This document shows positions 43,758 through 45,097 of a DNA stretch of 64,000 bases, piece after piece. The notes below the pieces were generated by a model. It searched no databases. It worked only from the letters and a program-made list of their open reading frames with translations, and was not told where the DNA came from. Made by a program: the position numbers and the translations under genes. The stretch's first letter is position 1, and every line of letters begins with the position of its first letter. The stretch comes from Deferrivibrio essentukiensis (GTDB lineage: Bacteria; Chrysiogenota; Deferribacteres; Deferribacterales; Deferrivibrionaceae): assembly GCF_020480685.1 (NCBI RefSeq), contig NZ_JAJAFU010000013.1, positions 1-64,000 of the forward strand, written 5' to 3'.

Positions 43758-43797
43758 GAATAAATTTATTTTTTAAAAGAGGTCTAATCTCTGACAT

Positions 43798-43994
43798 CAC
43801 CCCATTTTTTTATATAATTGACATTTAGTTACAATAATAATGCTTCCAAGATTTTGCATATTATTTTCATCCAAAAAAGCAACAATAACAACAAAATGGA
43901 GGCAATGTACGATAGGTAACTTGCTAAGAATGCGAAGGAAATATGAAAAGAAAGAAGAGTGTACTCATGGCATAAGAGTGTAAAAAATGGGGTG
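43798..43994. mobile_element. MITE-like element, copy 1 (197 bp)
   Basis: Ends are 13-bp terminal inverted repeats, CACCCCATTTTTT and AAAAAATGGGGTG (flanking AT on each side extends the match to 15 bp in this copy). The body is the same as 44847-45043: 7 substitutions and no indels over 197 bp, same orientation. No transposase is encoded. The pair brackets the Abi_2 gene and its RNA hairpin. A minus-strand open frame with a hydrophobic Leu-rich stretch crosses both copies, but I do not consider it a gene. Confidence 0.85.
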
Positions 43995-44050
43995 ATAGCA
44001 GATTTTAATATGTTGCAACAGAATAGTTTTTTAACTATAAAAAGAAAAAA

Positions 44051-44100
44051 CCACGGGTTCGTCACCGCTACATTCGTAGCGTGAGAGGATTTGCCCGTGG
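44051..44100 (+). ncRNA. Structured RNA upstream of Abi_2 gene, abiF-motif candidate
   Basis: An outer 7-bp helix CCACGGG (44051-44057) with CCCGTGG (44094-44100) encloses a hairpin TCAC-C-GCTAC / GTAGC-GTGA (44062-44084, one bulged C, loop ATTC) and two single-stranded joins. It is the only G+C-rich patch in an A+T-rich gap and lies 34 bp before the Abi_2 start. A structured RNA motif linked to abiF-type genes is known from comparative RNA surveys; position and two-helix form fit, but I cannot score it against that model. Confidence 0.6.
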
Positions 44101-44134
44101 GCTGCATTACTAAGTATAAGAAAAATGAGGTAAA

Positions 44135-44833
44135 ATGCAAGCTAATTTTTCGACATCTATCAGAACATATTTATCAAACGATAGATTAACACCTTACGAG
44201 AAAATATTAAAAACAAAAGATGATAAAATAATCTTATCCCATTATATATGGAATATAAAGTTGTCAGAATGCTTTTATCCTTTGTTACAAATTCTGGAAA
44301 TTTCTTTAAGAAACAGTATTAATAATGCAATTATTGATTATTTTGGATTTGATGATTGGTATGAAGATAAATACGGCATATTAGAAAAAAATGAATTAGT
44401 ACTTGTATCAAAAGCTAAAGATGAAATAACAAAAAGGACTGAAGATTTGACAAAAGGTAAAATTATTGCGGAACTTAACTTTGGTTTTTGGACAAGTTTA
44501 TTTAACAAGAGATATGATGTTAAATTATGGCATAAAATCATCAAAAAAGTTTTTCCTGATTTGCTAAGAAAAAATAGAAACCGCAAATACCTTTCTCGGA
44601 AACTCAATGAAATAAGGAAATTAAGAAATAGAATATTTCACCATGAACCCATATGGAATAATGTTGGATTAAAGGAGATTCATGATGATATCGTAGAAGT
44701 AATTGGAGGCATAGATACTCATATAAAAAAGATGGTGATACTTTTAGATAATTTTGATCATATTTATGATAAACAATTTCAAATAAAACAGATAGAAAGC
44801 CAGATAGGTGATTTGTTTATTAAGGAGGCTTGA
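44135..44833 (+). CDS. Abi_2/AbiF-type HEPN protein (abortive infection)
   Basis: 232 aa. Abi_2-type features: DRLTPYEKILKTKDD at the start, YPLLQILEISLRNSINNA, FGFWTSLFNKRY, and the HEPN RNase motif RNRIFHHEP at residues 164-172 (R-x4-H). Such proteins (AbiD/AbiF) are RNA-targeting effectors of phage defence, and the family is thought to be related to the source of Cas13 HEPN domains. It is a single gene between two 197-bp MITE-like repeats, preceded by a structured RNA that may act as its control or antitoxin RNA. A+T-richer than its neighbours, so probably acquired. Confidence 0.85.
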   Translation: MQANFSTSIRTYLSNDRLTPYEKILKTKDDKIILSHYIWNIKLSECFYPLLQILEISLRNSINNAIIDYFGFDDWYEDKYGILEKNELVLVSKAKDEITKRTEDLTKGKIIAELNFGFWTSLFNKRYDVKLWHKIIKKVFPDLLRKNRNRKYLSRKLNEIRKLRNRIFHHEPIWNNVGLKEIHDDIVEVIGGIDTHIKKMVILLDNFDHIYDKQFQIKQIESQIGDLFIKEA

Positions 44834-44846
44834 ATTCTTTTGGTAT

Positions 44847-45043
44847 CACCCCATTTTTTTATATAATTGACATTTAGTCACAATAATAATGCTTCCAAGA
44901 TGTTGCATATTATTTTCATCCAAAAAAGCAACAATAACAACAAAATGGAGGAAATGTACGGTAGATAACTTGCTAAGAATGCGAAGGAAATATGAAAAGA
45001 AAGAAGAGTGTACACATGGCATAAGAGTGCAAAAAATGGGGTG
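44847..45043. mobile_element. MITE-like element, copy 2 (197 bp)
   Basis: Same 13-bp terminal inverted repeats and body as 43798-43994, direct orientation. Outside, AGGTCTAAT occurs both 9 bp before copy 1 (43780-43788) and 5 bp after copy 2 (45049-45057), which could be a trace of one insertion of the whole cassette. Confidence 0.85.
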
Positions 45044-45097
45044 GCTGCAGGTCTAATTTGTAATGACATTTATTAAAAATTATATTATTAAGTCTTT

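Follow-up and report, generated by a model that had tools for sequence, protein, structure and literature searches.

AbiF proteins are HEPN toxins that act together with a small structured RNA. In C. difficile, the RNA RCd22 is co-transcribed with the toxin AbiFCd and neutralises it by direct binding (PMC12373285). According to PMC12737573, PbAbiF binds one RNA per monomer, and the HEPN RNase lineage of Cas13 is thought to have derived from AbiF. A more distant relative of AbiF/D is PD-T4-5, a plasmid gene that provides abortive defence against phage T4 and is counted among toxin-antitoxin-like systems (PMC9519451); the sections of that paper on which this account is based make no mention of an RNA partner for PD-T4-5. 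Below, we describe an Abi_2 gene of the PD-T4-5 branch and a structured RNA beside it in Deferrivibrio essentukiensis, both located in a 64,000-nucleotide stretch of contig NZ_JAJAFU010000013.1, referred to as the window.

The gene (44135 to 44833, plus strand) encodes a protein of 232 aa, identified from Pfam, PADLOC and a fold match as an Abi_2 HEPN protein of the PD-T4-5 branch. The Abi_2 family (PF07751) is matched with an E-value of 2.5e-7 and 31.6 bits against a cut-off of 25.6, and the best PADLOC profile is PD-T4-5 (E 7.7e-28, residues 8-201), with AbiD at E 1.2e-6. Alignment of homologues places the HEPN catalytic motif, of the form R-x4-H, at RNRIFH (R164 to H169; 44624 to 44641, plus strand), and R164, N165 and H169 are invariant in 11 homologues. 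An AlphaFold2 model built from an 11-sequence alignment has a pLDDT of 90.8, and a Foldseek search with this model against the PDB returned chain 8VZ6_A, PbAbiF bound to its ncRNA (probability 1.00, TM 0.55, E 0.016), as the sole credible match, the next reaching a probability of 0.09. A model computed from the single sequence was poor (pLDDT 45.7) and was set aside. The protein has no phmmer match among PDB sequences and no relatives in the viral contigs scanned with it.

Directly before this gene lies a structure of two helices. The outer helix pairs CCACGGG (44051 to 44057) with CCCGTGG (44094 to 44100) over 7 bp and encloses a bulged hairpin closed by CGCTAC/GTAGCG around an ATTC loop (44066 to 44081); both helices covary, and the ATG at 44135 follows 34 nt after position 44100, in A+T-rich surroundings. 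Folding is stable on either strand, with -28.3 kcal/mol (z -4.73) on the plus strand and -22.9 kcal/mol (z -3.99) on the minus strand, and 0 of 200 shuffles were as good in each case. In a plus-strand scan with a sliding window of 58 nt, this locus reaches z -5.85, the most extreme value among 35 homologous upstream regions, whose median is -1.6, with 12 of the 35 below -2; as a general test over homologues, folding stability is thus weak and was not relied on. The stronger proof of the RNA is comparative, namely covariation in 24 sequences and recovery by a model built without the window. The two-helix structure at 44051 to 44100 is real and is a member of a conserved RNA family, which bears out what a reading of the sequence alone (the sequence-only reading) had claimed for this site.

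Upstream regions of homologues, taken from a genome scan and from plasmids, show one shared order of elements, with TC[A/G]TCAC between the outer and the inner stem, GAGAGGA between the inner stem and the return of the outer stem, and usually GGCTG after that. A first covariance model, made from seven homologues with the window excluded and the structure drawn by hand, recovered 44052 to 44104 of the window with an E-value of 0.003 over 182 kb, and it matched L006, L008, L011 and the Pseudodesulfovibrio locus L007 at the equivalent place. Covariation in homologous upstream regions, which the sequence-only reading had named as a check, is extensive: both sides change in 9 of 10 pairs in a 12-sequence alignment and in all 10 helix pairs in a 24-sequence alignment. 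In the latter, 94.3% of cells pair, where shuffles reach 72.9% and slid controls no more than 59.8%; both alignments are structure-fitted and hold partly related sequences, so that their numbers lean upward, yet they remain far above both controls. RNAalifold, with the structure left free, forms both helices and adds a middle helix to which the conserved element gives rise. The loops are fixed and the helices variable, and the conserved internal loop sets UCCUCUC opposite GUGAYGA. The RNA is single-copy, the model matching each locus once and the genome once. It is absent from the upstream regions of some homologues, where other hairpins may replace it.

The RNA is also linked to the gene. A second RNA model, run without protein information on 955 genomes (369 + 247 + 339), gave 14 matches, comprising four seed loci (L098, L101, L102 and L107, of which L107 has a protein identical to that of L006) and 10 new sites. 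Seven of the new sites lie directly before the same Abi_2 gene, which is intact in L105 and L108-L111 and broken in the other two, L112 and L113. No homologue follows the RNA match in L104, L106 or L114; L106 and L114 may be false matches, and L114 has no promoter. The linkage spans several phyla. In the protein tree the RNA type follows clade, requiring 10 changes against 19.6 in shuffles, and the window protein belongs to a supported nine-member group in which eight carry the RNA. Placement of an RNA beside a toxin gene across relatives is a trait of type III toxin-antitoxin and AbiF-AbiFr modules, and it is found here. In the cyanobacterial L112 and L113, a broken or fragmentary toxin gene accompanies an intact RNA whose minus-strand promoter matches TTGACA/TATAAT perfectly. 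L104 holds an orphan RNA (1501 to 1551) that is well conserved and has a promoter and a U-tract, with no Abi_2-like gene nearby, as expected of an independent antitoxin and not of a leader.

Sequence signals on either side of the RNA make it very probable that the minus strand carries it, reading away from the Abi_2 gene. The strand test, prompted by inspecting the spacer between RNA and gene, covered 27 loci that are partly related (for example, a Pseudodesulfovibrio group) and do not amount to 27 independent trials. TAnnnT occurs 7-8 nt before the RNA at 20 of these loci on the minus strand and at none on the plus strand at that distance, and hexamers matching TATAAT in at least five of six positions number 17 against 3. 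The mean joint -35/-10 score is 8.59 of 12 for the minus strand, where shuffles give 5.50 (sd 0.23; z 13.6), and 5.33 for the plus strand, where they give 5.15 (z 0.9). Minus-strand terminators follow the RNA at 18 of 27 loci, six as U-tracts after the outer helix (the window included) and 12 as separate hairpins, compared with a plus-strand terminator at 1 of 27. When the loci are aligned in the minus-strand (transcribed) direction, all elements come in order. A generic promoter and terminator scan called nothing at the RNA, whichever the strand, and found nothing above shuffles; what decided the matter was the comparison of loci at a fixed distance from the RNA.

Since the minus strand is favoured, the window RNA would run from about 44105 to 44045. 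Model recovery, covariation, promoter and terminator signals and folding together point to a small RNA gene of about 60 nt (44045 to 44105, minus strand) belonging to the conserved family, with its predicted 5' end near 44105 and its 3' end in a U-tract. This tract, TTTTTTCTTTTT (44039 to 44050, minus strand), directly follows the outer helix as a predicted intrinsic terminator, missed by the generic scanner because the stem has internal loops. A -10-like TATACT (44113 to 44118, minus strand) stands 8 nt before the RNA and, across a spacer of 16, a -35-like TTGCAT (44135 to 44140, minus strand), a promoter that is weak in the window alone (total 8 of 12). The -35 overlaps the Abi_2 start codon, and the promoters of RNA and toxin may therefore compete. 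In L062, L067, L073 and L079, an extra hairpin of the GGCCCTG...CAGGGCC type lies between the RNA and the minus-strand terminator, so that the transcript is probably longer there, roughly 110 nt, than in the window.

We favour, as the rather likely explanation, a toxin-antitoxin or abortive-infection module in divergent layout, in which the RNA of about 60 nt would serve as an antitoxin of type III-like function, one of the two roles that the sequence-only reading had raised. The plus-strand gene would supply the toxin, a HEPN RNase from the PD-T4-5 branch of the Abi_2 superfamily, and the minus-strand gene the small RNA, expressed from its own promoter with the -35 on the toxin start codon and ending at the U-tract. 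Once folded, the RNA would bind the HEPN dimer through the conserved internal loop and block the active site; phage infection would stop the supply of RNA, upon which the freed toxin would cut RNA. We infer transcription, binding, neutralisation, toxicity, phage defence and trigger from features computed here: a conserved covarying RNA, gene linkage (an RNA-only search that landed on the gene, and an RNA type that follows clade), minus-strand promoter and terminator signals belonging to the RNA itself, the gene-less copy in L104, the HEPN motif and an AbiF-like fold matching PbAbiF. Precedent is provided by the neutralisation of AbiFCd by RCd22 (PMC12373285) and by PD-T4-5, counted as toxin-antitoxin-like in PMC9519451. 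Counted against this explanation are the greater folding stability of the plus strand in 20 of 27 loci, one inner pair in which U-G maintains pairing on the plus strand alone, the same-strand position of AbiF RNA, the modest figures of the fold match (E 0.016 with TM 0.55) and the homologues without the RNA.

The first two of these points would suit a different arrangement, implied by the sequence-only reading, in which the toxin mRNA carries the structure at its 5' end as a cis-acting control of the gene itself, working by autoregulation, by attenuation or by sensing a phage protein. The position of the structure 34 nt before the start codon, a plus-strand TTGCAA-17-TATAAA at 44013 to 44041 and the 5'UTR control described for lactococcal AbiD1 (PMC12373285) are likewise in keeping with such a sense-strand leader. 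Wobbles outside the middle helix are about equal for the two strands (8 G-U against 9 A-C) and do not tell the strands apart. However, no conserved plus-strand promoter is seen (z 0.9), plus-strand terminators are confined to a single locus, the minus-strand signals are strong and one RNA copy has no gene to lead, all of which make a leader unlikely. A minus-strand RNA could alternatively act as a type I-like antisense, pairing with the toxin mRNA leader and not with the protein; the two genes overlap divergently, and a toxin mRNA that starts upstream of 44051 would have a leader complementary to the RNA over its full length. A perfect antisense would nevertheless need neither the conserved loop nor the covarying helices that are kept across phyla, and AbiF relatives act by RNA-protein binding, so we regard antisense action as quite improbable.

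The sequence-only reading also raised an RNA-guided effector, in which the RNA directs the HEPN RNase to its targets as in Cas13, and fold homology to AbiF, the proposed Cas13 ancestor, lends this some appeal. Yet no repeat array surrounds the gene and no spacer or variable guide segment is present; the RNA is one compact hairpin with variable helices and fixed loops, and there is one site per genome searched closely. The guide claim thus finds no support and is very hard to credit. Most remote is a chance hairpin, or a terminator or promoter spacer devoid of RNA function. Generic promoter and terminator scans at the level of shuffles and the modest median stability in homologues (z -1.6) would agree with it, but covariation, the conserved loop, fixed promoter spacing and gene linkage across several phyla contradict it for the family.

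The antitoxin RNA favoured here resembles the AbiF RNA of Rfam (RF03085) in shape. The sequence-only reading had suggested an abiF-type RNA and an Infernal search with the Rfam model; that model (gathering score 37 bits) finds nothing in the window or its genome with the E-value relaxed to 10, nor anything in the homologues, and it recovers its known site in phage phiC2 at 37.6 bits as a positive control. Conversely, the seven-homologue model has no match in phiC2. An Rfam search at loose thresholds gave sub-threshold chance matches only, which were discarded. The alignment to phiC2 shows RF03085 to be 37 nt long, its 6-bp outer helix separated from an inner hairpin by a 1x6 internal loop. The window RNA, also next to an Abi_2 gene, likewise combines an outer helix with an asymmetric internal loop and an inner hairpin, which is a likeness of shape and not homology, and the two differ in sequence, copy number and strand. 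What stands of the suggestion is a structured RNA accompanying an Abi_2 HEPN gene, an AbiF fold (8VZ6) and an abiF-like topology, whereas membership of RF03085 does not. A CCUCUCA following the 5' arm of the outer helix is common to the RF03085 consensus and the window minus strand, and is a lead only. Further AbiF RNA models by Zilberzwige-Tal et al., AbiF5_iter3.CM and diverse_rna_xinsi.CM, are named in PMC12804078; the present family, set apart here from RF03085 alone, may already be known among them.

The RNA and toxin gene lie between two MITEs in what looks, from the sequence, like a small composite transposon-like unit. The left MITE (43791 to 44001) is a 206-nt repeat with inverted ends CTG...ATCACCCCATTTTTT, and the right MITE (44845 to 45050) is 95% identical to it. 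These ends are common to insertion sequences of ~1.45 kb in the sister genome G001, which encode a DDE transposase (PF01609) and carry 8-11 bp target duplications at CTG...CAG ends. The outermost ends of the unit, 43791 and 45050, are flanked by probable target-site duplications, GTCTAATCT on the left (43782 to 43790) and GTCTAATTT on the right (45051 to 45059), which match in 8 of 9 positions and sit at the same distance from the ends as the duplications of complete insertion sequences do. By eye, the inner MITE ends show no such duplication. As only the outermost ends are duplicated, the 1,260-bp unit (1.26 kb) seems to have moved as one. G001 has the same 1,260-bp unit in the same place, with 98% DNA identity and one of five codon differences changing a residue, and the sister species G002 has an empty site, its two flanking genes being only about 50 bp apart.

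Other hairpins precede Abi_2-family genes at loci sorted by eye into group B (L063, L077, L084, L085) and group C (L068, L069, L074, L081, L083, L086). Several of these have strong minus-strand promoters (e.g. TTGACA-17-TATGAT in L063) and minus-strand terminators, and divergent RNAs may be general in this Abi_2 branch. For the PD-T4-5 branch, we tentatively propose RNA-controlled toxins with an unrecorded, divergent RNA family that has its own promoter and terminator, the AbiF RNA being a sister in function and not in sequence or layout. AbiF with its RNA is the proposed root of Cas13, and an RNA on the distant PD-T4-5 branch, which includes an experimentally shown defence gene and where RNA sequence and strand differ from those of AbiF RNA, bears on how HEPN toxins gain RNA partners. 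Annotation of PD-T4-5-like systems as single genes may miss half of the system, and a gene cloned alone could look toxic or inactive. With 24 sequences, a promoter and a terminator, the RNA family is defined well enough for testing.

Among known systems, Cas13 shares a HEPN RNase with the window locus, which has a single HEPN motif and neither a CRISPR array nor a guide segment. The type III systems ToxIN, CptIN and TenpIN resemble it in having an RNase whose presumed inhibitor is a small structured RNA, as we propose for the window, but they have a different toxin and a repeated RNA motif before it, with a terminator between the two (PMC12373285). The window RNA is single-copy and divergent, no repeated motif is found, and over the 27 loci the RNA signals favour the strand opposite the toxin gene, with a plus-strand terminator at just one locus. 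PD-T4-5 is the best profile match, yet the window protein is a shorter and distant member (232 aa against a 309-position profile). Unlike RCd22, which has two motifs, the window RNA has one; it is also divergent with its own predicted terminator, whereas AbiF RNA is co-transcribed on the same strand as its gene, and the window protein can barely be aligned to AbiFCd. AbiFCd/RCd22 (PMC12373285) and PbAbiF/AbiFr (PDB 8VZ6; Zilberzwige-Tal et al. 2025, as cited through PMC12737573 and PMC12373285) nevertheless share with the window an Abi_2 HEPN protein, a two-helix RNA beside the start of its gene and the same fold.
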